From Fragilaria crotonensis (Eukaryota; Bacillariophyta; Fragilariophyceae; Fragilariales; Fragilariaceae): DNA of 34,611 bases. The number at the start of each line of letters is the position of its first letter. Within the stretch, counting starts at the first letter, position 1. Location of the stretch: the NCBI GenBank assembly GCA_022925895.1, contig JAKSYS010000660.1, forward strand, positions 1 through 34,611, written 5' to 3'. Made by a program: the position numbers and the translations under genes. This document shows positions 4,708 to 28,702 of this stretch, piece by piece. The notes under the pieces are model-generated. The model worked only from the letters and a program-made list of their open reading frames with translations. It did not search any database and was not told the DNA's origin.

Positions 4708-4840
4708 TGTTATCCCCGGGGAACCCGGAGGGTCATTGTGATTACGTCACAGGACGCAGCACTATGCCCAAGTCCAGGGCCACCCAAATCTAGCTCATAA
4801 TTTATGTAGCACACCGTTTTGAACGACAAGCACTTCAATA
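4708..4840 (+). repeat. 5' LTR of the second copia element (133 bp)
   Basis: It starts TGTTATCCCCGGGG and ends CACTTCAATA (the formal TG...CA end would be three bases earlier). It matches 28703-28918 base for base except one substitution and the insertion at 28775-28857. It is short for a copia LTR. A TGATTACGTCA motif near 4738-4748 could be a CRE/bZIP-type site; this is inference. Confidence 0.85.
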
Positions 4841-4964
4841 GAGCTACATAACCTTTTCACCCATCGGCGTCGAAAACGATCGCCGTTTCATCCGAGATAG
4901 TCATCCATACTACTCGTTGTCGATTGTCGTGTGTCGAGCTCCTCCTCCACCGCCTTCCACCGTC

Positions 4965-5269
4965 ATGGCGTCTTCTACGAAATTCAATTTCCCATTCACC
5001 ACATTAACGCCCATCACTGGGAAGCCAACCAACACAACCTTGCAACTCTTGCAACGCCAGCTTTTCACCAACGCTCGCTCTGTCCCCTCCGCCCGAGGCG
5101 GTGGCCTCCACGGGCATTTGGCCATTTGCTCAGCGAGCCTGATTACATTGCTCGCGTCGGCGTCGCTTTTGATATTCCTCAGCATCCTGGCCCACCACCC
5201 GTTGCCGGTGGTTCTGCCGCTGCCATTGCCGTTGCCCTAGCTACGCGCCTACACGGATGCCCTCGACGA
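4965..5269 (+). pseudogene. Copia gag, 5' part, interrupted by the TIR element
   Basis: The capsid-type gag start is at 4965 (MASSTKFNFP). The conserved diatom copia gag wording follows: ITGKPTNTTLQLLQRQLF, NARSVPSARGGGLHGHLA, then in another frame LSEPDYIARVGVAFDIPQHP, and back in the first frame TDALDD at 5253-5270. Two frame changes occur in 300 bp. The sequence then runs straight into the inverted repeat at 5270. The missing continuation is found at 23823 (DVALYNNLRSAL), 18.55 kb downstream. Confidence 0.85.
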
Positions 5270-5295
5270 CATCACAAGGCGGCGGCTTTTACATG
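5270..5295 (+). repeat. Left terminal inverted repeat
   Basis: It begins CATCACAAGGCGGCGG and ends TTTTACATG. It pairs with the reverse complement of 23797-23822 at 21 or more of 26 positions. Differences fall at C/T in the middle and in the two to four bases before TACATG. Confidence 0.8.
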
Positions 5296-5689
5296 GACTC
5301 CTACATAGTACATTATTTTACAAATTATGTCCAAACTTTTTACAATTTGTACCTTTATGTATTTTACATTAATATGGAATTTTCAACCAAAACCATTCAA
5401 AATAAGTGTACCACCTATGGTACGCCAATTTTGTATTTCAAACATATCCATGCATATAGTGAACACCTCTATGTATGAAGTGTTCTGTTTCTTTTTTTGT
5501 ATTCGCAACTTTCTTGGTATCGGTGTACCACTTCATTTGTGTCATTCTCAACCTACATGCAAGGGTTTTCTGTTTAAGTCGCTCGTCCTTGTCTGTTGTT
5601 CATTTTGATGCCACCACCATGAGCCTCAGGCCAGGCTTTCACGTCGGATCGAAAATTCACGCAGGAGAAATGCCAAGAAAGTCCTCATG
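5296..5689. other. AT-rich left subterminal region
   Basis: No gene is supported. The stretch is AT-rich and contains repeated ACAT/GTAC words and the inverted pair GTACCACCTATGGTAC near 5408-5423. This resembles the subterminal transposase-binding regions of CACTA-type elements, which is inference. Right-end counterparts lie at 23386-23796. Confidence 0.4.
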
Positions 5690-7265
5690 TTATCCCCAGA
5701 GAAAGACCAATGTATTTCATGTGGTTTGTTGTTGCTGGCCCAATGGGTCTGTCCCGTCATCTCTCAACGCATCCTCAGTGTTCCTTGGATTACTCAAAAG
5801 ATCCTTCCATTCATGGTGGCATAATGGACGCACCACCCCTTCATCACCAACAAACCAATGCGAGCTTTCATGCTGCCTTGTCATCTGTTACTGGTGCCCA
5901 TGCAAACAACGATCACATATCTTTACTACCCTTGCACGTTGAGGATGATTTTGTTAGTACCTCGTCATTTGCTGATGTTGATGAAAATGACCCTTTACTA
6001 TCCATCGCTGAGGACTCCACCACCTTTGCATCCAACCATCCCAACAGCAGTGTCCTATGTCTGCTGCTGAGATTGGCGATGCCCCTTCTTTCTGATACAT
6101 TCAAGGATCCATGGTCAAATGATCACGATGATGGCCTTGAACTGTCGTTGTTTTCTGTTGAAGAAAAGGTTCAGATTGATCTCCTTCAGACCCTGAAGAG
6201 ACTCAAAGCTCCAATGATTGCTTATGACGAGGTTATGAAGTGGGCTGTTAGATCCTGCTCAGAAGGACACATTTTCGCGACATGCCGATCACTTCACGTA
6301 AGACGGTTATGGACAAGCTGCGTGGACGTGTTGGCCTCGATTCTTTGACTCCCATTGTGAAAGAGCTCTACCTCCCTTATTCAAACTGCCACATTGAGGT
6401 TGTTTATTTTAGTGCCCATGCCGTATTCAGTTCTCTTCTTTCTTGTCCGGACCTTAACCAGGACGAGAACTATATATTTCACGACCCCAACAATCACCAC
6501 CTTGACCCATTTGCAAAACCGTCCGGGTCAGTTTTGGGTGATATCAATACTGGCATGTCCTACCTGAAAACCCGACAAGCTTATCAAGAATCCTGAGGAT
6601 ATGTTACTTCCATGCATACTTGCAATTGATAAGACAACATGCGACATTGGTGGCGGTGGTAGGTTGAGTTTGGAACCCATTGTTCTTTCCTATGGACTGA
6701 TGAAGCATGACATTCGCAAGACACCCGCCGCAATGAGGGTGTTGGGTTTCATCAACACAACTCCTGTGAAGGAACGTGATTCCTCTCCTGGTGTTCCAAA
6801 GCCAATACGCCACTCCCAATTGTATCATCTTCACTTGTTTCTGATGCTTGCTACCGCGTAAATGAATATCACCTTCAAATTGACTTCATTCTTCGTGAGT
6901 CAGGATATCTTCAACTCCAAGAAACAGGTATGAAATGGAACCTTCGTTATCGCGGTAAATCTTTCCCTGTTGTCTTGCACCCTTACGTTCCATTCATTGT
7001 TGGAGACACTGAGGGACATGACACTCTCTGTGGTCATTATCGATCTCGCACAGCAGGTGTTGCACAGCTATGTCGTGCTTGCGAGTGTCCAACTGGGAAA
7101 TCAGGTTATTCCAAGGCACGTGCCTATCCAAAACGCACACCCAAGTCCGTCAATGAAATGGTCACCAAGCGACAGTTTGACTTGTTGAAGTCCAATTCTC
7201 AACAGTTTCTGATCAATGCATTCGATTCTGAGTCACAGTCGTTGACTTTGATCCACGTATCGTAA
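5690..7265 (+). pseudogene. CACTA/Plavaka-like transposase remnant
   Basis: DDE-type transposase, broken by about four frame changes and 3'-truncated. At the N-terminus CISCG (5711 on) followed in another frame by GLSRHLSTHPQC suggests a C2HC/C2H2 zinc finger. An acidic region follows, then EEKVQIDLLQTLKRLKAP (about 6160-6215). The core reads CILAIDKTTCDIGG...GRLSLEPIVLSYGLMKHDIRK (6608-6722) with a likely first catalytic Asp, and later FIVGDTEGHDTLCGHY (6990-7040) with a likely second Asp, followed by LCRACECPTGKSGY, a Cys-rich knuckle. The wording 'DKT...G...P...GL...IRK' and 'GDxEGxD...C...CxCP' fits Plavaka/CACTA; a KDZ (Zisupton-type) relative is possible. Reading stops after SQQFLINAF near 7225, so the third acidic residue is missing. 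Confidence 0.6.
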
Positions 7266-7989
7266 GCACACCCGTATGACTGGACATGAGGATACTGGGT
7301 CTTACACGCAACCATCCGAACGTAATACCATGGAACATCCAATATCCATTCCACACCAGTACGGAGTGTTGTGAACCCCGGTAAAAACAACTTCCAGAAC
7401 TCTTCGAAGTGGTATTGCAAATGAGGACATGGAACCAAGATGTGCGATGCGCGAACCAAATGAGACGCCGTGACCTCCGATGGTTGCAGGATATCAAAGA
7501 GTGTTTCCGATTCTCCATTCCTGCTGCAAAGGAAATATGGATAATAAATTCGAACATCGAAGCCACTCCCATCGTTGATTGGCCGATGCAGATATCGACA
7601 AGCATATCCGGGAGTTCGACGCCCACCCGTAAGGCCACGAGGAGGGGCAAGAGGTTCGCAGTCCAACATCGTTCGATAGCGGCCACCCGCACAAACAAAA
7701 TGAAGAGCATCTCGTTTACTTCCCCGGTTGTTCACGCACAACAAATCACACACCCACACGTCTCTTGCCCCACCAGAGGAAGCAAGTTGGGCAGCCCTTT
7801 CGTGGACTCGTGATGAACAGCTTTTTCACAGTTCCGTTCCAGTGTCAATGAACGGGCGGATATTTTGCCGATCGTCACCGCATCATCAACTTTCTTGAGA
7901 TGCAACGTTGTTGTCGTGCGTAGAGTTGACACCACCGTAATCATCTTCAGGTGCTGATGAAGATGGGGCATCACATGAAATAGCCGTGT
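7266..7989. other. Unassigned stretch between the convergent transposase and antisense gene
   Basis: Several frames are open for up to 186 codons on the minus strand (7199-7759) and 134 on the plus strand, but none shows a recognisable motif or continues the flanking genes. I cannot tell whether this is decayed transposase C-terminus, 3' end of the antisense gene, or junction sequence. Confidence 0.3.
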
Positions 7990-10358
7990 GCATGGAAGCG
8001 GAGTTCCGACAATTGTCCCAAACAAGTAAGTCGTCAGACACCCCTCCCCAACAGCATCAGAAGCTGGGACTCCTTCATCAACACTGCTGTCGTCTTCATC
8101 ATCGCCCTCGTCTCCAAGACCGAGATCAGATTCAAATCCATCCATCCAATTGCATGCCAATGATGGGAGACGCCGCAACGTCAACAAGAACGCCATCGAC
8201 ATCACCAACAACAACTTTCGATTCCTCAGTTGGCGTTTCATCAACGATACCTTCGGGTAAATCCTCAGCATCAGACGGGGTGCAACACTCCAGTTGTGCT
8301 TCCCACCTGCCCACGTCGCTTTTGCTCCAAAGCGATGGCCGTTACACCATACCGAACGATGGCTGTCTTTGCCGCCAAAAAGTGCCATAAACATGACAGT
8401 CCTTCTTTCTTTGCATCATAGAGGTGCAGTGCCTAATCAGCCTCCCATCCCAGCATAAGGACACCGTGAGTTAGCTTTATTGCCATGCCGTTGTATGTTG
8501 TACCAGCACTATTTTTTCCCGAAGACATTGGGAAGCACAAAGTACCAATCTGTTGTGGTACCAGGCTCATCTTCAGTCCAGATGCTGAACCCTTGCGACG
8601 CGTCGTTAACGTCATAGTGGGAGGAGTTTGCCAAATCAACACTAACATCCATTGTATGGGACACACGACAAGATGCACCATCACCCCTCATGCCACCCGA
8701 AGGTTTCAGGTCGGCATCATCTTCCATGTCCTGCATGACCCTTAGCACAGCAGGAACCGATTCCGAGGCCAGCTGGGCTGCAGCTCGAACACACGCCCCA
8801 AGAACCGGACGGTCCAAAAGAGTAGAAGATGCAACATATTGTGTTCTAGTCACAAGATCCCTTTCAATTCGAGTCCCCACCGGGTGCATAGACCCAAGAT
8901 CACCCTGGTTTGCCCTTACCCCCGAAGCACCACGACTTCGACGAACACTGGCAGCATGGTCACGAACAAGTCCAACCAGATCAAGGGCACCCCTGCCAAG
9001 TGCAGGAAGGTACCTTACCTGTATCACAGAATCGCGAAATAGGGCAACCATATTGTTCCCTGATGGTGACGAATATGAACGGAAACATTGACATCCACAT
9101 CGCCTTCCTTTTCAGGATCAATGATCCAAACCGAATCTGGATTTATATGGTGATGGAGGTATCCCGCAACATAATGACGGCAGCCTCTTCTTGCCGATGT
9201 TGACTGTAAATACTTTTCAAGGTAGTCTCGCCGAAGCTCTTGTGTATTCCTTGTGGAATGAAAGTCCGCCCCAAATATAGTCCGGTGGTAAGCGGGAGAA
9301 TCCTCGTCGGCACATTGCTGTACATGATACACAGACTTGGGTGGAGATTTGTCGAAAGTGATTCCGACAGCATTACCAGTGAGACGGTCGGGAATGACAA
9401 GTTTCGGCGAACCCCGATGGATCCTCCATCTCCAGACACAGTCAGGATCACCACCCCACAGACGTGTCACATAACCACCTTTCCCAAATCTCCTCTCCTT
9501 CTTCCCGTTCTTGACAACCCGAAGCCAGTTAATGTCAAGTGGTACATGCGTATTTGGCACGCCAACACATACCTTCCTCCTCTCCCGGTGGCAGTAAAAC
9601 ACACCCGCCTCCGGAAGCACAGCGACCAACGCCCTGAAACGGTGGTCGTGACAGGGCTCCTTCAGGGAAATGTCATCAATACGCATCTTGACGGGAGTAT
9701 CAACCGTAGCGCGGGTGGAAGACAATGGCCTTGGAACTTTCTTGGAACGCGCCAAGACAGCATCGAGAACAATGATCTCAAGAACGTGAGGAACAGCCAC
9801 ACCACACGTCTTGTCGCGATCACACTTCATGAATTGGCACTGTTCCACGGAAACATTACCAACACCAAAGGTATCCACTAGTGCTTCGTGAATACTGGAA
9901 ACGAAGGTTTTGCAAACCTGTGCTCCAGGCGGGATGGCATCATGCACCCACTTTGAACCGGCTGTGGGCAATCCCTGATGATGGAGAAAGCGCTTGGTGA
10001 AAGACTCCGACAGATGACGTGGAATGCATTTCGACAACACCGCCGCAGCCTGCACTTGACTAGGGCAGAATGTCTTGCGGCGCGCGGGATCCGAAAAATG
10101 CGACTCATCTCCAGACGAAAGACCGCAAAAGACACGTGGATTTTTGTACCCCGCAATGATATAACGCGAAAGCTCTCCAGGAAACGTTCGGCCCCCAACC
10201 ACATGGGAAGCCACCAACACACGACGACGTACCGGCGAGGCGAGATCCTGAACATCCAAGACATCAGAGTCCGCCTTGCGTTTGCGGTTCTCACAAGGAG
10301 AGGAGCCACATTCCCGAGTATGATTGCAAGAGCGTCTCCCAAATGGTGAAGTAGACAT
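7990..10358 (-). pseudogene. Antisense transposon gene with a dioxygenase-like HxD...H...R pattern, frameshifted
   Basis: Start chosen at 10358 (MSTSPFGRR), because farther upstream the frame runs into the minisatellite. The first segment (10358-9024, about 444 residues) has an early basic patch (ENRKRKAD), several Cys and His, and no motif I recognise. After a frame change or intron near 9020-9050 (an AGGTAAGG donor-like site is present) comes LGSMHPVGTRIERDLVTRTQ, then SVDLANSSHYDVNDASQGF and TDWYFVLPNV (about 8660-8520). A further break leads to GMAIKLTHG and, one frame off, CWDGRLIRHCTSM (about 8490-8425). An acidic Asp/Glu-rich tail follows to about 8000. HYD, then the later His, then Arg 8-9 residues on, matches the iron and 2-oxoglutarate ligands of a double-stranded beta-helix dioxygenase. 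The function is inferred. Confidence 0.5.
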
Positions 10359-10373
10359 AATTGCAAGAACAAC

Positions 10374-12310
10374 AAGCACCGCGTCACTGGATGGCAACGA
10401 CGATCCTCTTCGCAACGTCAGGTACCGCGGCGTCAACAAACAATCGAGCGTCACTGGATGGCAACGACGATTCGTTTCTTCGCAACGTCAAGCAATGGCG
10501 ACAACAATTCTCTTCGCAACGTCAAGCTCCGCGTCACTGGATGGCAACGACGATTCTCCTCGCAACGTCAAGCGATGGCGACAACAATTCTCTTCGCAAC
10601 GTCAAGCACCGCGTCACTGGATGGCAACGACGATCCTTTCGCAACGTCAAGTACCGCGGCGTCAACAAACAATCGAGCGTCACTGGATGGCAACGACGAT
10701 TCGTTTCTTCGCAACGTCAAGCGATGGCGACGACAATTCTCTTCGCAACGTCAAGCTCCGCGTCACTGGATGGCAACGACGATTCTCTTCGCAACGTCAA
10801 GTACCACGGCGTCAACAAACAATCGAGCGTCACTGGATGGCAACGACGATTCGTTTCTTCGCAACGTCAAAGCGATGGCGACGACAATTCTCTTCGCAAC
10901 GTCAAGCACCGCGTCACTGGATGGCAACGACGATCCTTTCGCAACGTCAAGTACCGCGGCGTCAACAAACAATCGAGCGTCACTGGATGGCAACGACGAT
11001 TCGTTTCTCGCAACGTCAAGCGATGGCGACGACAATTCTCTTCGCAACGTCAAGCACCGCGTCACTGGATGGCAACGACGATTCTCTTCGCAACGTCAAG
11101 TACCACGGCGTCAACAAACAATCGAGCGTCACTGGATGGCAACGACGATTCGTTTCTTCGCAACGTCAAAGCGATGGCGACGACAATTCTCTTCGCAACG
11201 TCAAGCACCGCGTCACTGGATGGCAACGACGATCCTTTCGCAACGTCAAGTACCACGGCGTCAACAAACAATCGAGCGTCACTGGATGGCAACGACGATT
11301 CGTTTCTTCGCAACGTCAAAGCGATGGCGACGACAATTCTCTTCGCAACGTCAAGCACCGCGTCACTGGATGGCAACGACGATCCTTTCGCAACGTCAAG
11401 TACCGCGGCGTCAACAAACAATCGAGCGTCACTGGATGGCAACGACGATTTGTTTCTTCGCGAAGTCAAAGCAATGGCGACGACAATTCTCTTCGCAACG
11501 TCAAGTACCGCGTCACTGGATGGCAACGACGATTCTCTTCGCAACGTCAAGTACCGCGGCGTCAACAAACAATCGAGCGTCACTGGATGGCAACGACGAT
11601 TTGTTTCTTCGCAACGTCAAAGCGATGGCGATGACAATTCTCTTCGCAACGTCAAACACCGCGTCACTGGATGGCAACGACGATCCTTTCGCAACGTCAA
11701 GTACTGCAGCGTCAACAAACAATCAAGCGTCACTGGATGGCAACGACGATTCGTTTCTTCGCGACGTCAAAGCGATGGCGACGACAATTCTCTTCGCAAC
11801 GTCAAGCACCGCGTCACTGGATGGCAACGACGATTCTCTTCGCAACGTCAAGTACCGCGGCGTCAACAAACAATCGAGCGTCACTGGATGGCAACGACGA
11901 TTTGTTTCTTCGCAACGTCAAAGCAATGGCGATGACAATTCTCTTCGCAACGTCAAGCACCGCGTCACTGGATTGCAACGACGATCCTCTTCGCAACGTC
12001 AAGAACTGCGGCGTCAACACACAATCGAGCGTCACTGGATGGCAACGACGATTTGTTTCTTCGCGACGTTAAGTTTCCTTTCTTTGCAGCGATGCGAACC
12101 GCGTCACTGGATGGCAGCGACGATTCACTTTGAAACCTTAAGTACAACGTCGGTAAGGGCGACGAAGATTCCTTTCGCACCGTTAAGCGGCACCGCGTCA
12201 GCGAGCGACGGGAACGACAATTCCTCTCGCAACGTTAAGCACCGTGTCACTGGATGGAAGCGACGATTTGATCTTGATTGTTACTGGATGGCAACAAAAG
12301 ATCGTATTCG
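10374..12310. repeat. 150-bp minisatellite, 11 units
   Basis: The word GCGTCAACAAACAATCGAGC or a close variant recurs at 10431, 10659, 10809, 10959, 11108, 11258, 11408, 11559, 11709, 11860 and 12011, that is every 149-151 bp after a first spacing of 228. Each unit holds about three copies of a shorter core related to GATGGCAACGACGATTCTCT followed by TCGCAACGTCAA. The last units (12060-12310) are degenerate. No stop occurs in any forward frame of the consensus, so three overlapping open frames of 436, 524 and 621 codons result. I do not regard these as genes. The array abuts the 5' end of the antisense gene. Confidence 0.9.
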
Positions 12311-12480
12311 TCAAACCTTGTGAACGTGTGTTAATTGCTACAAATTGCGGGGAAAGAAACTAAAAAAGCAGAGCGGTGAAAAAAGTACTAGAGGACTACG
12401 TACAGGCTAGTTCGCAACATATGTTGCACAAACAACAAGACTGCAATGTGGGACTTCATTTTGCCGCTTAAAAACCACAA

Positions 12481-12638
12481 ATTTGCGCTGTACAAGCATA
12501 CATACAAAGAAGGTATCTACATATATGCCATATATGTAGAAACTTAGTTACATAGGGGAATTTGCCATGTACACGCATACATGCAAAGAAGGTATCTAGG
12601 TATATGCCATGTATGAAGAAACTTAGTTACATAGGGAA
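12481..12638. repeat. Imperfect 79-bp tandem duplication
   Basis: Copies at 12481-12559 and 12560-12638 share GCATACAT, CAAAGAAGGTATCTA, TATATGCCAT and GAAACTTAGTTACATAGGG in the same order. Confidence 0.85.
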
Positions 12639-12953
12639 TAAGTTGAAACTTGGAAACCATTTGATAACTGTAGCTTACACTGGCAATACGTGCAAAACGA
12701 CGTATCATAACCGTCGTGGCACTGACATGTTTGCAGTACGTATTGATACGTAGTACGTATCAACCTGTGCTAAGTATCAAAGATATGCATACTACAACTT
12801 GCTCATAATGGGAGCATATGCGCATATGCACGCAAAATTTCGTTCGAAATACTACATACGTGACTATATATCTTTGCATTGAGAAAATGCGTTGCAAACC
12901 GGTGTAGAATTGAATTCAGGTACTATGCCTCAAAGTACCCAGCACAGACATCT

Positions 12954-13399
12954 ACATCATGCTGGTACAAACAAAATTCAAATACCATGCGAGGTACTAA
13001 ACGTACTACAGTAACATAGCAATTCGTACGTGGAGACATATGTATATGTACACCACGTAATAGAACACAAACGTAGTAAATATAGCTGTACATACAGCAT
13101 GTACAGGGAGTAATAGTATGCATACGGTGATTTGAAATCAAATGTACGACCGGTTGTCCTCGCATCCGCCCAACGAAAACATCATGCTGGTACAAACAAA
13201 ATTCAAATACCATGCGTGGTACTAAACGTACTACATACAGTAACATAGCAATGCGTACGTGGAGACATATGTATACACCATGTATAAAATAGAACATAAA
13301 CGTAGTAAATATAGCTGTACATACAGCATGTACAAGGAGTACTACTGGTACGGTGATTTGAAATCAAATGTACGACCGGTTGTCCTCGCATCCGCCCAA
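12954..13399. repeat. Imperfect 225-bp tandem duplication
   Basis: Copy one 12954-13173 and copy two 13179-13399 both run from ACATCATGCTGGTACAAAC to GTCCTCGCATCCGCCCAA with few differences. The second copy ends 23 bp before the ATG of the downstream gene. Confidence 0.9.
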
Positions 13400-13422
13400 G
13401 AACAAAAAGGAGCGCACAAAAC

Positions 13423-13882
13423 ATGAAAAGAAACACAAACTCCAACACATTGTCTGAAACATTGTACGACCAGGTAAGAGGAAACAAGCAATTAAGACGA
13501 ACAGGAATGCCGCCAAAGAGGGTTTGGAATGATGAAAACATAGACCCAGAATCAGGAGGTAGGTTAAAAGATGTGCAGGGAAGGAGAGTACAGCAGAGGA
13601 GGAGTCTGCGCAACTTGAATCAAAATTTGGAACAGCATTTGAACGCAAATGGCAACGAGAGTAGAGGAAGCTCACCATCTAAGTCTGTATTGGAGGAACT
13701 AGACACCCTTTCACAAGATAACTGCTCTAGTAGTGAGGATGACTCTCATGCAGTAGGAGAAGGTCACCATGAGCGGGATCGCCAGCAACAGGAGGGAGGA
13801 CCCCATTTTTCTGGTGATGTGCAAGTCGACGGCATGCCTCCATCCAGAGACATTCCAGGTGACACTTCATATCACCTGAACA
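13423..13882 (+). pseudogene. Unrecognised transposon cargo gene, 5' part, interrupted by a LINE
   Basis: Start at 13423 (MKRNTNSNTLSETLYDQV). The segment is hydrophilic and low in complexity, rich in Gln, Asn, Glu and Ser, with MPPKRVWNDENIDPESGG, RRVQQRRSLRNLNQNLEQ, an acidic SSSEDDSH cluster and GMPPSRDIPGDTSYHLN at the interruption. No catalytic motif is seen; it looks like a disordered N-terminal region. The frame continues exactly at 22101 once the LINE and one copy of the 17-bp duplication are removed (SYHLN then NGNMLQGG). The stop shortly after 13882 lies in LINE sequence. Confidence 0.65.
13866..13882 (+). repeat. Left target-site duplication of the LINE
   Basis: TTCATATCACCTGAACA, repeated exactly at 22084-22100. 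The first one or two T are ambiguous because the LINE ends in T residues. Confidence 0.9.
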
Positions 13883-13969
13883 GAATTTTCACTTAGGAGA
13901 AAATAGTAAGCCCACTAGGTTTTTCTACGTGAATCTTGAGTAGGTCTTGGTACCTGCGCTTCAACGACG

Positions 13970-16021
13970 ATGATGGACCCTTCCGTTCATCATGCCACCG
14001 GACGCCTTCAAGCAACAAGCGATCTTCCATGCGATGACGACGATACCGTAGTTACACCTAACCGTGGAGAAAGTTCAAAGTCAACTGTCAAGTCTAGCGT
14101 CGAAATAACGCTTAGATTTCGTTTTGTTCCATCTCAAAACAACGACAACATTCATCCAGCAATCCTTCATGCAAATTGGATGCATGAAGCTATTATGGCC
14201 TTCGGTAGCGATAAGATTCAGTTCTTCGATAATCGAAATCGCCAAGTCAGTAAGATCGAGCCACTTCGTATTGATCCCGAGATGCATGTCCAGCAGTTTC
14301 ATCTCCATTTCGATCGTCACACTCGCCAGCACAAGAATACTACGTACACCAACAACAGTCAGGACCACAAAAGCGTTTCGACTTATATCGTTCATCGAAT
14401 CCGTTCGGTGGTTTCCTTGAGCGAACTAAAGGCAACCAATTCAATCTTCAAGTTGATGAAAGAACATAATTTCTACGTGAACGAACATCGTTGGAGCGAA
14501 ACGGACTGGGAAACGACACAACTCGGTTTTATCTATGGTCTCGACCCACAGTTCTATGACATTGACCAAGCGACAACCAAGTTCACCAATACCCTACGTC
14601 AGGCGTTACCGCGGATGAAGATCCCCAAATTTAGATTGGTGTATTGTTCCCCAAAGATCAAAACAGCGAAAGGACGCATCGTCAGAACCAAAGCGTACGC
14701 AGTGGAAACTTTGAGAGCAGATCGAGACGAGCTTAGCAAACAATTGAAAGAAGCATACAAAGAAAGCGGAACCTTTGTACCCTTTCAAATGAGATCTCGT
14801 CACCCGGATGCATTCGAGCGTTTCATCAAAGCACAAACTCGAACGTTAGCAACAAACTACGTTATCGTGTTGAATCACATTGGACAAGATGCAATGCACT
14901 ACCTTTCCGAACGCATCATCGCTACATCGGGTGTCATTTCGCTATTACCGTGTCGATCCGTGAATGAGGATGGAAAATACAAAGTATTAGTCCATCAAAA
15001 GAACTATCATCAGGTACGGGAAGTATTGAAAGAGGCGATTCCAAAGTGGTACGAAGAACACGTCGAACCAGATGCTAAAGTTTCGGCAGATCGATACCCT
15101 GGACCTCCAGCAGTATCGCCGATTGAATCCGATGGCATCTCGCAAGGCGATCATTCTTATTTGACAATCAGTATTAATACTGCAATGTCAATCGGCTCGA
15201 ATATCTCAAACGAAAGTCCACCTACATTCATATATCGCAAGGAACAACAGAGCGTTACAGACGAATCTACACTAGGAGGCAGCCAAGCTAATTCATCATA
15301 CGTCGGTAAAGCATCGTGGGCAGATAAAGTCCGTGGATCACAAACTTACTCATCAAGCGAGCAGACTTCCACAGTCGAGTCGGAACAACACAAACTCCTA
15401 CAACAGGAACTCGCTAAAAGTAGAGACGAGGTTGCTGCGTTACGAGAGAGGTTAGCCATGATTGAAGGCAAGCAAGCACAAGACCAAGCAACTATCGAAG
15501 AAAAAGTACAAAGTCAGGTATCGCAGGCCTTGCAAGAACAGTTCAGAGTCTTTACTCATGACATGACAACAATGTTTAGTCAAATGATGATGGCACAGAT
15601 GTCGTCTAATGCATCCAAAAGAAGAGCAACACAAATCGACGAGCCAGATGACGATGATATAAAAAAGGTACAAAGCAATCACATCGAAGGAGCTAAAAGA
15701 TGGGATAACAAAGCAACACCGAGAAAAACGTCAGAATCGAGAGTCGAAAATGAAGACCAAAGAATGTGTATGACACCAACAAAGTTAGCAGCCCAGATGA
15801 TCGACCACCAAGATGGCCTATGGAATGATAAATCGAGCTCAGCGCAAATCAATAAACAAAACAATGGAATCGCCAAGAATAAAGAAGGCGAACAAGACAA
15901 CAAGTCGGACTCAGGAGAGAATGACTTCAATAAGCAAGGCTCTGGCATTGAGAGCAGCAACAAGTCCTCGACATCGGAAACATTCATGGATACAGAGGCA
16001 CACGACAACCACAATGATTAA
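13970..16021 (+). CDS. LINE ORF1 protein, 683 aa, intact
   Basis: This is the only long mobile-element frame here without a break. Residues about 35-330 form a folded-looking region with VEITLRFRFVPSQ, ETTQLGFIYGLDPQFYDID, FRLVYCSPKI, TKAYAVETLRADRDELSKQL and FVPFQMRSRHPDAFERFIKA. Residues about 470-550 are a coiled coil (LLQQELAKSRDEVAALRERL, QVSQALQEQFRVF), followed by MMMAQM and a long hydrophilic Asn/Lys/Ser tail. There is no CCHC knuckle. In LINEs, ORF1 proteins bind element RNA and form trimers through coiled coils; that role is inferred from position and architecture. The stop at 16019-16021 overlaps the ORF2 start. Confidence 0.85.
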   Translation: MMDPSVHHATGRLQATSDLPCDDDDTVVTPNRGESSKSTVKSSVEITLRFRFVPSQNNDNIHPAILHANWMHEAIMAFGSDKIQFFDNRNRQVSKIEPLRIDPEMHVQQFHLHFDRHTRQHKNTTYTNNSQDHKSVSTYIVHRIRSVVSLSELKATNSIFKLMKEHNFYVNEHRWSETDWETTQLGFIYGLDPQFYDIDQATTKFTNTLRQALPRMKIPKFRLVYCSPKIKTAKGRIVRTKAYAVETLRADRDELSKQLKEAYKESGTFVPFQMRSRHPDAFERFIKAQTRTLATNYVIVLNHIGQDAMHYLSERIIATSGVISLLPCRSVNEDGKYKVLVHQKNYHQVREVLKEAIPKWYEEHVEPDAKVSADRYPGPPAVSPIESDGISQGDHSYLTISINTAMSIGSNISNESPPTFIYRKEQQSVTDESTLGGSQANSSYVGKASWADKVRGSQTYSSSEQTSTVESEQHKLLQQELAKSRDEVAALRERLAMIEGKQAQDQATIEEKVQSQVSQALQEQFRVFTHDMTTMFSQMMMAQMSSNASKRRATQIDEPDDDDIKKVQSNHIEGAKRWDNKATPRKTSESRVENEDQRMCMTPTKLAAQMIDHQDGLWNDKSSSAQINKQNNGIAKNKEGEQDNKSDSGENDFNKQGSGIESSNKSSTSETFMDTEAHDNHND

Positions 16022-19000
16022 TAGTAATCCAGGATCGTATATCAGGCAGGCTCATGATAGAAATGTTCACAGGACGCATTCTGTAACGCCTATGGACCGT
16101 CTGAATATCGCACAGACAGAATGGAGGAAGATTTTCACGCAAACTATAGACGACACAGGAACGACTCGGGTTAACAGAGAGATACAATTGTCGACAACGA
16201 ATCAACGAAATAATCATATATGGGGCGATGAAATGGAAAATAAAGGAGACGGAATACTCAGAGTTTATTCGGCAAACGTCAACGGATTTACACTGGATCG
16301 CAGAGGAGGACAATTCGATACATATTGCACAACTTTACAAGAAGTACAGGCGGACATAGCGTGCGGACAAGAACACAACCTCGACTCCATGCAATCACCA
16401 GTTCGAAGTATAGTATTCGATACTACACGTAAGTACTGGCAACGGTCACGGATTAACTTCGCAAACACCCCCGTCGTCTTCAAGAATTTATATAAACCAG
16501 GCGGCACATTCATGATGACAATGGGAAACGCTACAGGCAGAATCAAGTCTACATCACAAGACAAATGGGGTCGATGGACAAGTCAAACATTTCAGGGAAG
16601 AGCAGGTGTTATATTTACAGTAATCTCAGCTTATCAAGTCGTTACAGATAGTCCAGGCAAAGGTTTGATGACAGCGGCATCTCAACAACAAAGTTTTCTC
16701 ATCCAAGAACAAGATCCGGTGATCGCCCCCAGAGAGGCTTTTCGGCGAGATTTGAAACGGTTTCTTCAGCAATGTCGCAGCGAACGTCATGAAATTCTCT
16801 TGGTCGGCGACTTCAATGAGCAAATCGGAGACGAACAAGACTCCATGCAAAAAATAGTAGACGACATTGGCTTAATTGATGTAATGAAGCACCGGCACGG
16901 AGGCAGACTTCCAGCAACTTACGCCCGCGGCCAGAGATGTTTGGATTACGCCCTCGCCACCCCGCATGTAATTAATGCAGTGGAAAAAGCAGGGTATGAA
17001 GCATTCAACGCAAGATACCAAACGGACCATCGAACGTATTTTGTGGATCTTTCGACAGACAAGTTGTTCGGAATTCAGATTCAACCATTATCAAAATACG
17101 AGCCACGAGTGTTGAAGGCAAACAATCTGAAACAGGTGACGGCATACATCAAAGCAAAACACAAGTATCTGGATGCACATAACGTCTTCGACAGGATGAA
17201 ACGCTTAGAATTGCCAGGAATAGACATCGATTTGCAGAAAGACTCGATAAAGATGTAGAAGCGGCGAGCCTTGCAGCTGAACAAACCATTCCTCACTTCG
17301 ACAAACCATTCTGGTCAGTCGACTTAGCACAAGCTAGGAAAAAAGTTCAAGTGGTGAATAAGTGCTTATCAATGGCGAGGACACGATTGGATAATTGGGA
17401 GGTCATACAGCACGAGTGGCAGGACGTTTTTCCATCCGAAGAGATGCCCAGAACCACACAAGCGTGTAAAGAATTACTCAAAGAATTGAAACGCCAAGTT
17501 CAAGAATTGGTCAAATCCAGTTACGAAGTAAGGGCAAGCGAAAGAAGAAAAAAGATCGACGAATTGACAGCATCGGCGGTTGCAAGTGATCAGGATCAAG
17601 CTACAAGGTTGCGACATCTACAAAAAGCGGAAGCCCTCAACCAACTCTTCTCAAAGTTGCGACGATTACGACTGACTCATGAGCGACAAGGCGTTACACG
17701 TATCGAAATACCGACAGATTTGACGATGGATCCAAAAGAGTGCACCTCGTGGCAACAGATTGATATCCCAACTCAAGTTTTGCATCATCTTCGGACACGG
17801 AATCAGAAGCATTTCGGACAAGCGCAAGGGACTCCGTTCACTGTTCCACCGTTGAGTACAGACCTTGGATTCACAGGCCAGCGTTCGGCAGCGAAACAAC
17901 TACTAACAGGAACTTACCAACACGATCCGGAAATGCAAAGCAATCTTCGACTGTTGTTAGATCATTTGAAACAATCAGCAGAAATAGCGACAATGGAACA
18001 CATGGCCTCCATAACCGAGGGCGAGATGAAGAGTAAACTACAAGTATGGCGAGAATCCACTGCGACCTCACCATCAGGATTACATCTCGGGCATTACAAA
18101 GCATTGATAGCAAAGCATCAATATTCCAACATTCCAGAAGATGAAGATGAAGAACACAAAGCCAATCGGGAAGAACTTGACAAAATGCAGTCCGATTTGT
18201 TCCAACTTCATTTGCACTTGATAAACTACGCCCTGACTCGAGGATACTCCTATCGCCGGTGGCAGAAAGTGGCAAATAGTATACTGTTCAAAGAACCAGG
18301 GAACATTCGGATCCATCGTACCAGAGTTATCCATCTGTATGAAGCAGATTACAATCTAGCGATGGGATTAAAATGGCGATCAGCATTGTATCACGCAGAG
18401 AGTCTATCACTTCTAAACGATGGCCAATATGGATCGCGACCTCATCGGAATGCAATAGACCCAGTATTCATCGAAGAACTTCAGTTTGAGATTTCCGCTT
18501 AACAAGAAAAACATTGGTGCAGACGAATTACGATGCAGCCTCGTGCTACGACCGGATTGTTCCAAACTTGGCAATGGTTGCAAGTCAGACATTTGGAGTG
18601 CCCCCTTCAGTGACAGCGTCAAACGCGCGGACGCTAAAGCACGCAAGATATCACATCAGAACCGAAATGGGATTAGCAGAAGAGAGCTACACGCATAGCA
18701 ATACTCACCCAATATACGGAACAGGACAAGGAAGTGGTAATTCTCCTGCTATATGGTGTTTCTTGTCGAGTCTACTTTACGATTGCTATGACCAGAAAGC
18801 AGCAAAGGCAACTTACAAAAATCCAAGTACATCAGAAACAGTGGAACTCGGTATGGTCGGCTTCGTCGATGACTCAAACGGGCAAACCAACCTGTTCGAT
18901 CATGAGGAAACGGAAAATGCACGCCATCAGATTATCACCCAGTTGGAAAATAACGCACAACTCTGGGCGGAACTGCTTGGGATTTCTGGAGGAGCATTAG

Positions 19001-21955
19001 AACCATCGAAGTGCTCGTATCACGTTATGGCTTGGCAATTCACGGTAACAGGAGCCCCTATCCTAATGACGGATTCGTCTCAGTTCAAAGGAGTCCGCGT
19101 AAAAGATCCCGCATCAGGAATCGATCAAGAACTCACGTACTTGTCTCCATATGCATCACACAAAACCTTGGGTCACTACAAAGATCCGGCGGGCACACAG
19201 CGCGAACAATATCGACAACTGAAATCCAAGAGCGATAATTCGGTCGAATTTTTGTATCAATGTTCATTGACCCCAGAAGAAGCATGGACGTTCTATTACG
19301 CGTGCTACTTACCAAGTATCGGTTATCCCCTCGCAAATTCACACTTCACGGCAGCTCAATTAAACAATATTCAACGGAAAGCGATGTCAATCATCATTGC
19401 GAAATGTGGATATAATCGGAACACAAAACGAGCTATCATATACGGTCCATTGGAATACGGCGGCGCTAATTTCAGGAGATTGTATGACCAACAAGGTATC
19501 GGACAAGTTCAATTATTCTTGAGGCATTGGCGCAACAAGACAACAGCAGGAAGGCTACTCCGATGTGCCGTAGCTTGGGCACAATACTGTGTTGGGACCT
19601 CACTACCGTTGATGGAAAATGTGTACGATAATCTCCGCATCTGGAATCCAAATGGTTAAGTTCCCTGCGTGGATATTTGGCCTTTATCAAAGCAGGAATA
19701 CAGTTGGACTACACGGGTGTTGCACCACTAGAGCGACGTCACGATGAATTCATTATGGATCGGATATTAGCATCAGGTCGATTCAGCGATAATGAAATCA
19801 GGCGAATCAATTATTGTCGATTATACCTGGGAGCGCTGACAATATCGGATTTGGCGACGACAGAGGGAACGCAGTTAGATCAAGCAAAACTCACGGGTCA
19901 AGAATCACTGTTCAGCAATCGTCCGAGGTGGATGAAGGTGCATCAAGAGTTACCATCTGCAGTATCATGGAAATTATGGAAAAAAGCAAATGCGCTATGG
20001 AGCTATCCCGACGGCACATTGGTCCAACCCTTGGGGCCTTGGTTACTAACTACCACAGAAAGTCGGATATCTTACCCTGCTTACGTCTACAGATCGACAT
20101 TATACGTGCGACGAATGGGAGGGGAATATGTCAAATGTCGGAAGCTTGAAGACACTCAACGAATGTATAGAGAAAGCAATCTCAATATCGAAGAGGGAGA
20201 TTCCGAATATGGCAGTACCCGTGGAAATTCAGCAGGCAGGAAGAATGCATCGATGGGAAATAATCAACAAGCTGTCTCGGAGTATCCAACCGCGACCGTT
20301 ACCAGTGGCTACGTTTGACGACTACGTTCAACAGCTTGATGCATGGGAGGTCGATCTCCTGCGGCATACAGACTTATTTGTGGATCCGTATACAGCATGT
20401 TTAGAGTTACACCAAGGATTTGAAGCCGGGAGCGATGGTTCCGAGTATGGCACCGACGGATCATTCGGATGGATGATTAGCACATCCCAAGGCGAACGAG
20501 TAGCGACGGGATGGGACCATCAGGGGATACGTAATGGACTCCTACCGAGCAGAATGCAGTGGCATGCTGTCAATTCTGCGATTTTTGTTGAGGCTGTCTG
20601 AATATACAAACATGATTGAACCATGGGACGGTACAATCGGGACAGATAGTCAAAGCATGCTTGACACAATATTCGGACGAGATCGGGACGGGGGCCCTGC
20701 GGCATCTGCCCCGACTGCACTTCCCAGGAATCTCACCCCCCTTGATCCTTTGATACCTGAATGGGATTTACTCGTTGAAATCCGATATGCTCTTACACAT
20801 ATGCCAGGAGTCAAACTGGTCTATGTTAAAGGCCACCAGGACAAGAAGAAGGCGTACAATAGACTTACTCTACGGGCGCAGTTAAACGTCGACGCTGATG
20901 ATTTAGCGGGGAGGTATCAAGATCAATATGGACGCGCACATCCATATGCACTCATGACACCGAATACAGGAGCATTTCTTGTTTATCCAGAGGGAACAAA
21001 AACTTCGAAGTATGCGCAAGATATCCGACACCGGGCGACAATAGGACCATTGCGAGAATACATTCAAGCCAAGTATGGGTACACCGAAGCAACTATGGCT
21101 ACGATTAACTGGCGGGCGCATGGAAAGGCGATGAAACAGATGATAAAGAAACGGATACACATCACAAAACTGGTACACGAGTGCTTACCCACTCTTGAAC
21201 GCTTAAACAAGCAAGAAAGCAGAACACGAATGTGCCCAGGTTGTGGAACATGCCGGGAAACCAGGGACCATATCCTTAAGTGTACGGCCGCAAGTCGTCA
21301 GAATTGGAGGGACAGTTTTCATCACATCATTGATGAGTTCCACGCTAAAGAAGAAACAAATCCATTACTTCGCAATTTATGGAACGAAACAATAAGAGAC
21401 TGGATGGTCACAAATGAGGAAGTCGAGTTTCAAGCATCGCCAATTTTCTTTTCCACTGATGTTCGAGCGTTGATCACCCAGCAAAATTCGATCGGTTGGC
21501 GCCAAACGATCAACGGGAGGTTCAGTGCGGAATGGAGCCGGATTCAAGACGACCATTATGCAAGGTTGCGGTCCCAACGAGGCACACAGGACAGGCGCAG
21601 CGGTCACCGATGGCAAACTAAACTGATTTGTTTGATATGGAAGGAATGGCAAAAGCTATGGAAGATAAGGAACGAAGAGTTACACGGGAGCGACGCAGCA
21701 GACCGTGCCATGCGGGAAAAGCGAGAGATTTCAGCGCAGCTGCGAGAAGTATATGGCAAGCGTCTCCAATATGAACCGAGAGTCCGCGAACTATTACTTC
21801 GTGAAGAACACGAACATATGCATAAGCCACTATGGGTAACTCGGAATTGGCTAACGGTGAATGTACCAATTTTCAAAGAAAGCGCAAAACGAGCAAAGGA
21901 GAAAGCGATAGCAGGGGTGAGATCGATACGGTCTTATTTTGAACCCGTGCGGTAA
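16014..21955 (+). pseudogene. LINE ORF2: APE endonuclease, reverse transcriptase, RNase H, zinc knuckle, frameshifted
   Basis: ATG chosen at 16014, overlapping the ORF1 stop by 8 nt. APE endonuclease: YSANVNGF, GQEHN, ISAYQVV, VGDFNEQIG, LDYALATPHV and TDHR (16265-17035). Frame breaks near 17225, 18490, 19660, 20170 and 20535 split the rest. RT: ATSPSGLHLGHYKAL, VIHLYEADYNLAMG, NYDAASCYDRI (first Asp), YGTGQGSGNSP and the catalytic FVDDSN at 18862-18879. RNase H: DGSEYGTDGSFGW, YRAECSGML, GTDSQSMLD, and VKGHQDKKKAYN with NVDADDLAG (20430-20910). C-terminal zinc knuckle CPGCGTCRETRDHILKC near 21232-21282. All expected active-site residues are present. The first three breaks behave as single-base losses. 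Confidence 0.88.
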
Positions 21956-22071
21956 ATACCGTACAGCGAATTACTGATACTGGACGTGGTCCCACTCGGA
22001 TCATATCTGGTCGTGCGAGTCGACCTTTTATACCACGAAAGAAGCGGCAGCACGTTAACTTAGATTTGAGG

Positions 22072-22085
22072 TTTTTTTTTTTTTT
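22072..22085 (+). other. Poly(T) tract at the LINE 3' end
   Basis: Fourteen T residues follow ATTTGAGG and run into the target duplication. In the sense direction of ORF1 and ORF2 a LINE would normally end in A or an A-containing repeat. Confidence 0.85.
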
Positions 22086-22100
22086 CATATCACCTGAACA
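22084..22100 (+). repeat. Right target-site duplication of the LINE
   Basis: Exact copy of 13866-13882. Confidence 0.9.
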
Positions 22101-23365
22101 ATGGGAATATGCTGCAGGGTGGAAGCAACAGTACTGCAAATATGCAAGTCGGTGGCAGGCCGCCATCTACCGGAGGCAGACCTCCATTCGGAGACAGACC
22201 CGCCGTCCAAACTGCACGTGACCAGAACAGGACACAAGCTCCACTCAATCATTGGACAAGCACACAGTCAGACAACCATGTTCGTCAGAATGGACGATTG
22301 CCTCCATCCAGAGGAAACGACTTCAATGATGACTTGTTGGTCTCTCGACAGCAGCAACCTCCAATGAATCAGGAAATGCACCAGAGACACCACGTGCAGA
22401 ATCAGCAGGAGTCCATTTGGGAACATCACGAAGGTGTTGGACAAGATATCAGGTACAGGGCAGGAGATCGGACACTACTACATGAAGCCGGAAGGCGAGC
22501 CATGTCCTACAGAGCCGCAAAAGCAATGCAGCAGAAACATGTTGCCGATCGCATACAGATTGTGGTGAAAACAAAAGTCTTCGGAAATGCAAGTTCATTA
22601 CAAGCGGGAACACTTCGACAAGGTAATGCAGGTGGTTGTGGATTCGGAGAAACCAGCTGATGCTTCCAAATTTGTGAGGATCTACAAAACATGTGTCGTT
22701 GGAAGCCTGAATACTAAGCGTAGCACATGTGGGCAAGCTGCTACTGAAGCAGTGATGAAACTGCTGAAGATTAAAAACCATGTTGATGAAGTGGAGCCAC
22801 CGCCCTATTCAATGGATATCCTTTGCAAGCTACGGCAGTCACAGTCTGATCTGGAGAGAGCCTTTCTGTGGTTTGCTGGTGAATTGCTGGAATGTGTCAG
22901 TGGAAAGAGGGCATGGGGCGAGGGACAAAGTATAAGGCAATGATATCAGAAGCAACCTCAAACGATACCGGAGAACTGATTGTGACGGTTTCGGACGAAG
23001 CATTTGCGTTGCTTCTATATGAAAATTATATTGACAAGTGGATCAAGAGGTACCACGAGGATCGAAGGGGAGAAGAGAGGTCAAAACGGATTGCTGGGAG
23101 GTACACAAGAAGTAGTGTTGGGTACTGTGAATATGGAGGCTGGAGCGAGGACGGTGTGCTGCGATTCAATGAATTGTGCCAAATGGTGCAAGAGGACAGG
23201 GCCAGTCGAAATGCAAGGGAGGCTGAGGGTAGGCTAATGGCAAGTCTTCGGCAACAAGCAGGACAGGGAGTGGAGAGGAGCAATGAGAGGGAGGTGGATT
23301 ACAGTGATTCGCAAAGGAGTTTGGACCGGAATGAACAAGTAGTCAATGCATTTATTGAGTTGTAA
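22101..23365 (+). pseudogene. Unrecognised transposon cargo gene, 3' part, GGWS-type C-terminus, frameshifted
   Basis: It continues the gene begun at 13423. A Gln/Asn/Pro-rich part (GGRPPSTGGRPPFGDRP) is followed by YRAAKAMQQKHVADRIQIVV. A frame change near 22585 leads to YKREHFDKVMQVVVDSEKP and YKTCVVGSLNTKRS, and another near 22915 to the C-terminal domain: LIVTVSDEAFALLLYENYID, KWIKRYHEDR, GRYTRSSVGYCEYGGWSEDG and VLRFNELCQMVQEDR (23080-23205). A charged tail ends at 23365. The dense pattern of Tyr, Trp and Gly in the last domain looks like a conserved fold, but I do not recognise the family. Its position just inside the right end of the TIR element suggests it belongs to the transposon. 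Confidence 0.6.
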
Positions 23366-23796
23366 CTAGCAACAATTGAACGCAGCGACCCAGTACTATG
23401 AAAAGCAGTATTATTATACAGGGAATGGTACTGTGACAAGATGATACATTGTACCAAAGAATGGACATCCAAAGCATGCGTGGTGCAGTGACAAAAAGGT
23501 GATTGGTGCGTGGTGCAGTGACAAAAAGGTGATTGGTGTAGAATGAATGTTGCAACGCTGTACTGGACTAAAAAAAAACATTGTACAAAGACAAACAAAT
23601 TACGGACAGTAAGCAGGCAATGGTACAATAAAAAAAAATTTACATGTAACATGCACGTCGGGACGATGTACTGGACTCAAAAAATATTGGTACATGCACA
23701 AAAAAATAAACAGGAAAAACAATATGGTACATTGTAATAAGATATTTCGAAGTGTACCGGACTCAAAAAAAAACAGTCTATGTAACAAATATGTTA
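23366..23796. other. AT-rich right subterminal region with repeated motif
   Basis: No gene. The motif TGTACYGGACTMAAAAA occurs three times in direct orientation (about 23561, 23669, 23754), and TGGTAC/GTACC words are frequent. An exact 30-bp tandem duplication lies at 23478-23537. Direct subterminal motif repeats beside a TIR are usual binding sites for CACTA-type transposases; here this is inferred. Confidence 0.5.
23478..23537. repeat. Exact 30-bp tandem duplication
   Basis: Two copies, 23478-23507 and 23508-23537, each from GCGTGGTGCAGTGAC to GGTGATTGGT. Confidence 0.95.
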
Positions 23797-23822
23797 CATG
23801 TACCACCCGCCACCTTGTGATG
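23797..23822 (-). repeat. Right terminal inverted repeat
   Basis: It ends CCGCCACCTTGTGATG, the inverse of the left end at 5270. It is followed by GACGTCGCG, where the GA repeats the GA before the left end. Confidence 0.8.
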
Positions 23823-24633
23823 GACGTCGCGTTATACAATAACTTGCGCTCGGCCCTCACCGCCCAAATCCTAACCGCTGTCAACCCATCGTTTCGCAGT
23901 GCCTTAGAGGACCCAGATTTCGGTTTTGGCGACGTCACTCCGCTCGCCATGTTGGAACACTTTCGCAATGAATACGGCACCATGACCCCGGAGGAGTTGG
24001 AACGCAACCGCGCCGCTCTCTCCGAACCTTGGAATTTAGATGATCCCATTGAGGATCTCTGGGCCAAAATTATCAACATTCAACGTGTCGCAGCACTCGG
24101 GGGCCTACCAATTCCTGATCTCACCGTCATTACCCTCACATTAGCCATGATTGAGAAAACTGGCCTTCTGGTCACCACCACCGACAAATTCCGCCTACGT
24201 CCTACCACCGAATGGACCCTTGACCTCTTCAAGGCCGAATTTAAATTGGGAATCCTCAAGAGCGAATTCGGCGCCTCACCGCTAGCGACGCAGGCTTTCA
24301 TGGCGCCCATCATACCAGTGCCATCACCCCGCCTCCCACCTATGCGGCGGCCGCCAGTGCACCAGCACCCGTTGTGACACCTGTTCCTACGCCTACCCCT
24401 GCACAACACGTTTCTGTGGAAGGTGGCAAACTTCATTATTGCTGGTCTCACGGCTTGTCTCCCAACCGCCAGCACACATCCGCCACATGCTTGCACAAAG
24501 CGAGTGGTCATCGCGACGATGCCACGGCTTTCCGCATGTATGGAGGCAACAACACCATCTCTACCGGTCGTCCACGCCGCATTCCCAGTGCCAATCGCGA
24601 CTGACGACGCGGGGAGCCTACCCTTTGCCCTAG
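23823..24633 (+). pseudogene. Copia gag, 3' part with zinc knuckle, frameshifted
   Basis: Continues the gag of 4965-5269: ALYNNLRSALTAQILTAVNP, MLEHFRNEYGTMTPEELERN and LSEPWNLDDPIEDLWAKI are the standard copia gag (retrotran_gag-type) words, up to about 24369. A frame change near 24310-24375 leads to the knuckle region HYCWSHGLSPNRQHTSATC and KASGHRDDAT, a Cys/His arrangement typical of diatom copia gag. The gag is not closed by a clear stop before protease; in copia elements gag and pol usually form one polyprotein. Confidence 0.82.
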
Positions 24634-24679
24634 CATAGTACCGAGTCCACCACCGCTTAACGTTCTAAACAATGATACT

Positions 24680-26250
24680 GGTCAAACTTGTCTATCTACC
24701 GCCGATGCCGTAGGTCCCCCCACACTAAGTTCAACCCCCGCCGATAGCACAGCCATCGCCGACAGCGGCAGCACTGCGCACTTTTGCACTATAACTGCAT
24801 ACGTTATAAACAAACGCGTCACTAACAACCCAATCGGCATTACTATTCCTAATGGTACGATAATGTATTCCACTCACGAAGCCGACCTTGACCTCCCGTG
24901 CTTACCTCCTGCCGCACGTCGTGTCCACATTGTCCCCGCCCTGCAGACCGCATCGCTTTTGTCCATGGGCCAATTATGTGACGCCGGCTGTGAAGTCACC
25001 TTCGACGCCACCACCGTCAGCGTCCGCCACAACCATACTCTCCTCTTACATGGCAAGCGTCTCCCTCACACCGGGTTATGGCATCTCGACCTCAGCAGCA
25101 CCCCCGTCCCGTGCGCTCCCCCAACGGCACCGCCCAACGTCCACCGTCCTTACGATACGATGCACAGCGTTGCTGCCGTCGCCGTTACCACCCCTGCCGA
25201 CCTCGTCGCGTTCGCCCATGCAAGCCTCTTCTCCCCAGCGCTCTCCACACTCAAAATCGCGCTCGACCGAGGTTTTCTGCCCGACTTTCAAGGTCTCACT
25301 GCCAAAGCGCTCACAAAATATCAATCGCTGTCGGTGCCCATGATAAAAGGCCATCTCGACCAATCACGCAAGAATCAACGGTCGACGCAACGTAGTCCGC
25401 TGGCCCCCACGGACACACCCCCTGTCCCCGCGTCCATCGACGATGCCACCACCAACGATCTCACAGAGCTCGCAAACTTCCCCGAAAGCGACCCCAACAA
25501 CACACGCACGCATCACTGCTTCGCTGCTGTCGTTGAACCAGCTACCGGCCAAATCCACACCGATCAAACCGGCCGCTTTGTTGTCGCGTCCAGCACCGGC
25601 AACAACTACATCCTGGTCTTATACGACTATGATAGCAACAGCATCCTCGTAGAGCCCATGCTCAACCGCACCGGCGCCTGCATTCTCAACGCGTTCCAAG
25701 TCTTGCACGCCCGCCTCGTCACTGCAGGATTGAAACCGCAACTCCAACGCCTCGACAACGAATGTTCCACGGCCCTCAAGACGTTCCTCACCAACGAATC
25801 CATCGACTACCAACTTGTTCCTCCCGGGTTACATCGCCGCAATGCTGCCGAACGCGCTATTCGCACGTTCAAAAACCATTTTATTGCTGGTTTATGCAGC
25901 GTCGACAAAAAATTTCCACTTCACCTGTGGGACAAACTGCTCCCGCAAGCCGAAACGACGTTAAACCTGTTACGAGGATCTCGCATCAACCCCAAATTAT
26001 CAGCGTACGCCCAACTCCATGGCCATTTTGACTACAACCGCACACCCATGGCACCTCCCGGCATTCGTGTACTCGTCCACGTCAAGCCTCAGGATCGCAC
26101 CACGTGGTCCCCACATGGCGAAGACGGTTGGTATACCGGGCCTGCGTTTGAGTCCTACCGCTGTTCACGGTATGGATTTGTGCGTCACGTTCCACCCGCG
26201 TCTGCGACACACTCACATGGTTGCCCACCAAAATTGCGATGCCCGTTGCG
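24680..26250 (+). pseudogene. Copia protease and integrase
   Basis: Aspartic protease site ADSGST at 24758-24775, followed by YVINKRVTNNPIGITIPNG and PALQTASLLSMGQLCDAGC, the usual copia protease wording. Integrase core: HTDQTGRFVVASSTGN (first Asp near 25560), RLDNECSTALKTF (second Asp near 25755) and RRNAAERAIRTFKNHF (Glu near 25850), then LLPQAETTLNLLRGSRINPK, and GEDGWYTGPAFESYRCSRYGF near 26120-26180. Frame holds from protease to about 26190 and is then lost. The DDE residues are all present. The frame without a stop between protease and integrase fits a single polyprotein. Confidence 0.88.
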
Positions 26251-28640: not shown

Positions 28641-28702
28641 CGATGACGTCACACCGCCGCCTCCTGCGGCCAATTCTACAGTGGCCCCTGGTGAGGGTGT
28701 GC

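Follow-up and report, generated by a model that had tools for sequence, protein, structure and literature searches.

A Plavaka-type transposon family with a predicted TET/JBP-type dioxygenase gene in the diatom Fragilaria crotonensis

Organization of the locus

The analysed window is a 34,611-nucleotide stretch of Fragilaria crotonensis DNA (contig JAKSYS010000660.1, positions 1 to 34,611 of the forward strand), which is contig C624 of the host genome (62.1 Mb, 881 contigs; all C-numbers denote host contigs). Positions 5270 to 23822 hold a transposon carrying three genes, which encode a Plavaka-type transposase, a predicted TET/JBP-type dioxygenase in antisense orientation and a third protein, called GGWS. 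A long interspersed nuclear element (LINE) is nested in the third gene. The features, and the evidence for each, are as follows.

5268..5269, no strand: left copy of the target-site duplication, GA (flank comparison; site vacant in a Copia relative at C676)
5270..5295, + strand: left terminal inverted repeat, CATCACAAGG... (end shared by 7 window-family copies, among them C448, which lacks the right end)
5623..7265, + strand: disrupted Plavaka-type transposase gene (changes of frame, and DNA missing relative to C285; family identity from other copies)
7231..10358, - strand: predicted TET/JBP-type dioxygenase gene, split over several frames (open reading frame list, genome matches, predicted fold)
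8611..8619, - strand: codons of the metal-binding HxD in the dioxygenase, H at 8617-8619 and D at 8611-8613 (alignment)
10373..12069, + strand: tandem array of ~150-bp repeats just upstream of the dioxygenase gene, common to C285 (repeat search and C285 alignment)
13423..13882, + strand: GGWS-protein gene, N-terminal part, cut by the LINE (C285 alignment)
13883..22083, + strand: nested LINE, foreign to the transposon (C285 alignment)
22084..23365, + strand: GGWS-protein gene, C-terminal helical domain, frameshifted (C285 alignment, predicted structure)
23559..23763, + strand: subterminal motif TGTACYGGACT, three copies at 23559, 23667 and 23753 (motif search)
23797..23822, - strand: right terminal inverted repeat, ...CCTTGTGATG (inverted-repeat search and host-genome DNA searches)
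23823..23824, no strand: target-site duplication GA, right copy (flank comparison and empty site at C676)

The inverted ends are the boundaries of a repeat family. The two 26-nt arms, 85% complementary in a repeat search of the window, had been proposed as element ends in a first-pass annotation of this DNA, and matches to each end in other copies break off at, or within a few bases of, 5270 and 23822 in DNA searches of the host genome. Both ends are found at 97-100% identity in the window copy and in C414, C263, C383, C609 and C285, and at 69 and 73% in C152, a diverged copy, while C448 and C12 carry a single end only. The 25-bp flanks vary between copies. Duplications of 2 bp, within the 2-3 bp foreseen in the first-pass annotation, are identical in six of the seven two-ended copies (window GA, C414 CA, C263 TA, C383 CG, C609 TA, C152 AA); at 1/16 per copy, the probability of at least six matches in seven by chance is 4e-7.

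The window element interrupts the gag portion of a Copia element, and its flanks, joined minus one GA, align over 1,519 bp through the junction with an empty relative at C676. Likewise, the C609 copy is inserted in a relative of the window's LINE, with one match per junction side at the same offset. The whole element measures 18,553 bp, or 10,352 bp without the LINE, as the earlier figure of about 10.3 kb had implied. The reverse complement of the T form of TGTACYGGACT is absent from the left 700 bp. Related end pairs only 1.9-2.9 kb apart occur at C152:55248-58123, C195:20094-22105, C383:146280-148329 and C111:38044-39974, and are likely short non-autonomous derivatives.

Alignment with C285 revealed that 2,909 bp are missing at 7230/7231 within the window transposase gene, and that the GGWS gene begins left of the LINE (~13423). 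In C285 a single frame of the dioxygenase is open over 1115 aa, of which 1047 aa were read. As the LINE splits the GGWS gene, and both the transposase and the dioxygenase genes are in frame pieces, the window copy most likely cannot make any of the three proteins whole, judging from its reading frames. Insertion of the LINE duplicated ~17 bp and oligo-T is found at its right end; its reverse transcriptase and zf-RVT domains are weak Pfam matches under the cut-off, and ORF1-, endonuclease- and RNase H-like parts were recognized by eye. The tandem array is CpG-rich (observed/expected 1.87), the ratios being 0.65 in the transposase region, 0.60 in the GGWS region and 0.90 in the dioxygenase.

Recurrence of the gene set

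Genome searches with the three window proteins yielded at least 147 transposase, 100 dioxygenase and 169 GGWS matches, which were merged into 126, 85 and 129 clusters (150 of the 169 GGWS matches being used). All six near-identical two-ended copies, which have different flanks, contain all three genes. In the wider family, a dioxygenase gene lies within 20 kb downstream of 47 of the 126 transposase clusters, a GGWS gene downstream of 83, and both downstream of 44; the corresponding upstream figures are 5 and 3, and about 0.03 and 0.04 are expected by chance per cluster. The closest downstream dioxygenase is antisense in 46 of 47 cases and the closest GGWS gene is sense in all 83. Across the 44 three-gene clusters, identities to the window correlate among the three proteins. 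Copies are partly dependent, since C183 and C466 have a common right flank. Of 30 GGWS loci, 18 (17 copies) are followed downstream by the right terminus, recognized by a terminal 14-mer with at least 12 of 14 matches, the ends being CTTGTGATG, CTTCTGATG or CTTCCGATG; at the other 12 GGWS loci no right terminus clearly exceeds shuffles. The first-pass annotation had described all three genes in the orientations found here and had suggested a defined multi-gene transposon family, to be abandoned if the genes always lay in separate elements. They do not; the observation itself is confirmed, and the suggested family is supported.

After two extra queries, the dioxygenase matches merged into 91 loci. 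Among the best-scoring partner matches, 46 of these loci have both partners nearby, 5 the transposase only, 10 GGWS only, and 30 neither. Partnerless loci include C63, C121, C659, C594, C137 and C76, and several form multi-copy groups. They may be other transposons, host genes, or loci whose partners are too diverged for detection; capture of the dioxygenase by other transposons, by analogy with fungi, is possible. A dioxygenase homologue (P0006) and a transposase homologue (P0105) come from the same source, with 7821 bases as the longest contig for both, and their genes are perhaps located on one metagenome contig.

Transposase and family assignment

The element is Plavaka-type, with PlavakaB-like ends. 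The CMCT signature (D, D, C(2)C, H(3-4)H, E) does not vary among 33 aligned transposases, which come from 7 loci and from 26 of 113 homologues, and Pfam Plavaka (PF18759) is matched in 18 of the 33. The transposase of the window-family copy C414 exceeds the PF18759 cut-off, as do 76 of 80 Plavaka matches in the host genome, while a Pfam search with the window's own broken pieces gave no Plavaka match. A search of the host genome for the KDZ transposase (PF18758) gave 0 matches, control genomes being equally silent. CACTA/EnSpm elements proper have CACTA termini and 3-bp duplications, and are ruled out by the CATCA termini and 2-bp duplications observed here; of the original CACTA/Plavaka-like label, only the second half survives. 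PlavakaB termini are described as 5'-CATCA..TGATG-3', with duplications of 2 or 3 bp, in the available portion of PMC12730594. Window-family copies have such termini (CATCACAAGG..CCTTGTGATG), and duplications of 2 bp are present in six of the seven two-ended copies. The right ends of other subfamilies are CTTCTGATG or CTTCCGATG, the latter departing from PlavakaB termini.

Dioxygenase and GGWS proteins

The antisense gene is predicted to encode a TET/JBP-type 2-oxoglutarate/Fe(II) dioxygenase; TET enzymes remove methyl marks from DNA. The predicted fold is a double-stranded beta-helix closest to TET/JBP proteins: TET2 ranks first in VIA-align, and four TET/JBP proteins stand above every AlkB/FTO entry listed. 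By Z score, CMD1 (14.6) and CcTET (14.2) are tied, and FTO and ALKBH3 reach significance as well. Among gap-free rows of the alignment, the His and Asp of HxD are conserved in 39/39 and 36/37 sequences, the distal His in 28/34 and the 2-oxoglutarate-binding Arg in 33/33, residues whose roles we take from general knowledge of the superfamily. Homologues P0024, P0025 and P0029-P0032 have Asp instead of the distal iron-binding His and are possibly, from this residue, an inactive or altered subgroup. TET/JBP enzymes of the PE type, with HxE in place of HxD according to the part of PMC12730594 available, are ruled out by HxD in 36/37 rows.

Long open GGWS frames span 475-590 aa. The N-terminus is of low complexity and the C-terminal domain is helical, its model having a pLDDT (predicted local distance difference test) of 84. 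A search for PDB relatives of this domain found none, and none of 64 homologues bears a functional name. The GGWS locus L038 is 100% identical over 535 aa to the deposited F. crotonensis protein MHU86_7039 (P0068); P0075, another GGWS-family protein of this species, matches at 100% over 341 aa. Both extra genes had been described as matching no standard transposon gene. The gene set is less foreign to transposons than this implied, because fungal transposons, Plavaka included, are reported to carry TET/JBP genes (PMC12730594, in part).

Selection and methylation

Across subfamilies, at a synonymous divergence (dS) of 1-2, the ratio of nonsynonymous to synonymous substitution rates (omega) is 0.13-0.20 for the transposase (8 pairs) and 0.17 for GGWS (2 pairs). 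For the dioxygenase, C153 compared with each of two window-family copies gives 0.20-0.21. These codon comparisons show purifying selection between subfamilies. One further GGWS pair was uninformative (dS 0.003).

DNA cytosine methyltransferase domains are found on nine contigs of the host assembly, possibly of contaminant origin. A comparison of two copies of the element shows an excess of CpG transitions, and a Copia control shows none. The pattern fits methylation of the element, as read from substitutions, and falls short of showing it.

Interpretation

We consider it probable (about 0.72) that these elements form a multi-gene Plavaka-type transposon family whose TET/JBP dioxygenase likely acts on the family's own 5-methylcytosine, with GGWS as a helper. 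This reading builds on the ends, duplications, empty sites, recurring gene set and transposase motifs, on the TET-like predicted fold and active-site residues, and on the purifying selection seen between subfamilies. The cut-and-paste element would be mobilized by a CMCT-clade DDE transposase recognizing ends that start with CATCAC (in other subfamilies, judging from right ends, CATCAG or CATCGG) and producing 2-bp target duplications. The dioxygenase would most likely oxidize 5-methylcytosine within the element itself and thereby keep CpG methylation from silencing it. GGWS would most likely bind DNA or RNA and assist either transposition or the dioxygenase, in a role like that of TnpA in CACTA elements. 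This suggests that the elements bring their own tool against silencing.

Several observations weigh against this reading. The C285 duplication is mismatched (CA/TA). Of the 91 dioxygenase loci, just 46 have both partners within 15 kb and 30 have neither nearby, which is partly a detection limit, as the partner searches were capped. Searches of the dioxygenase sequence against Pfam and PDB families gave nothing beyond chance level, so that the TET assignment rests on the predicted fold, and Asp replaces the distal His in 6 of 34 homologues. Omega is raised in young pairs: 0.65 for the dioxygenase; 0.56-0.58 (window family) and 0.36-0.44 (C134/C161/C340) for the transposase; and 0.34 (C321-C482) and 0.61 (C516-C571, dS 0.37) for GGWS. 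Decay of dead copies, a reading of these ratios, would explain most of the increase; the weakest point is the 0.61 obtained for GGWS. In the CpG comparison the Copia control is much older and partly coding, and left-end pairs of additional copies had too few changes for a judgement. Finally, in the available part of a review (PMC9033121), the diatom Haslea is reported without significant change in 5-hydroxymethylcytosine, and TET is perhaps absent from diatoms; for TET homologues in Phaeodactylum, the same source refers to a thesis.

The same transposon might instead encode an enzyme that makes or repairs another mark, through CMD1-like glyceryl-5-methylcytosine formation, oxidation of 6-methyladenine or thymine, or AlkB/FTO-like demethylation. 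The CMD1 tie and the significant FTO and ALKBH3 scores favour this possibility, and Kojima leaves room for another activity in the fungal PU and PE types (PMC12730594, in part); the rank of TET2 and of the four TET/JBP proteins above the AlkB/FTO entries listed speaks for TET, and we hold a different mark to be possible, though clearly the less probable outcome. It is improbable that the dioxygenase gene was taken from the host in a single capture and rides along as a passenger of no use to the element. Although the 30 loci near neither partner indicate that the gene may also live elsewhere, its place and orientation are fixed across subfamilies down to ~30% dioxygenase identity, long open frames are numerous, and omega is ~0.2 between C153 and the window family. 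Nesting is common here, as the stacked Copia element, transposon and LINE illustrate, and one could imagine a chance nest of separate transposons with accidentally matching outermost ends. The six near-identical copies with all three genes in different flanks, and the empty sites for the window and C609 copies, refute this idea, which would survive only given assembly errors in all six.

We found no report of a TET-bearing transposon in a diatom in the openly licensed PMC literature; in the literature found, such transposons are known from fungi only. More tentatively, and with rather less confidence than the favoured reading commands, transposons might be a main source of diatom TET-family enzymes. 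Plavaka with an HxD-type TET, and GGWS guiding the dioxygenase to subterminal repeats, would then be a self-contained counter-silencing module, separate in origin from the fungal HxE-type captures and widespread in diatoms. With dozens of copies, this defined diatom family allows direct tests of transposon counter-silencing in algae. It may further be relevant to the rise of mobile-element gene expression at high pH in F. crotonensis, in which 48 mobilome genes are reported to be up at pH 9.2 (PMC9732472, in part).

Surroundings of the element

The Copia-like retrotransposon around the element occupies 4800-5269 and 23825-28900, and a second Copia-like remnant lies to the left (736-3728). Open frames at 29350-30225 (-) and 32680-34140 (+) have signal-like starts by eye; the latter contains a long SPTDSPTA-type repeat run, the source of which is a 12-bp tandem repeat.

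Comparison with known systems

CACTA/EnSpm elements with TnpA-like second genes resemble the diatom element in having a CMC-type transposase, an accessory gene and subterminal repeats; the diatom ends are CATCA rather than CACTA, with a 2-bp duplication. No relation between GGWS and TnpA turned up, no search aimed at TnpA having been made. The giant EnSpm/KDZ elements of brown and red algae are likewise algal DNA transposons of large size that contain accessory genes and nested insertions, and a TET-type gene is unmentioned for them in the available part of PMC12477816. Fungal Kyakuja and Zisupton (KDZ) TET-bearing transposons share the TET/JBP gene, but have another transposase family and duplications of 7 bp (Kyakuja) or 8 bp (Zisupton) (PMC12730594, in part).

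The closest systems are the fungal TET-bearing PlavakaB elements, for instance those of Agaricus bisporus and Gymnopus confluens. According to the available part of Kojima 2025 (PMC12730594), TET-bearing transposons occur in three fungal lineages, and those of the Plavaka group are all of the PlavakaB type; the main text never mentions "algae", "stramenopile" or "diatom". The fungal and diatom elements share a Plavaka transposase bearing the CMCT motifs, termini of the form CATCA..TGATG, duplications of 2-3 bp, and a TET/JBP dioxygenase gene (predicted in the diatom) within the element. In contrast, the present family resides in a diatom and has HxD, whereas HxE marks the PE-type enzymes reported for Plavaka in that source. 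The diatom elements further differ in their third gene, GGWS, with its unmatched helical fold, in the antisense orientation of the dioxygenase gene in nearly every copy, and in subfamilies with CATCG right-end variants.
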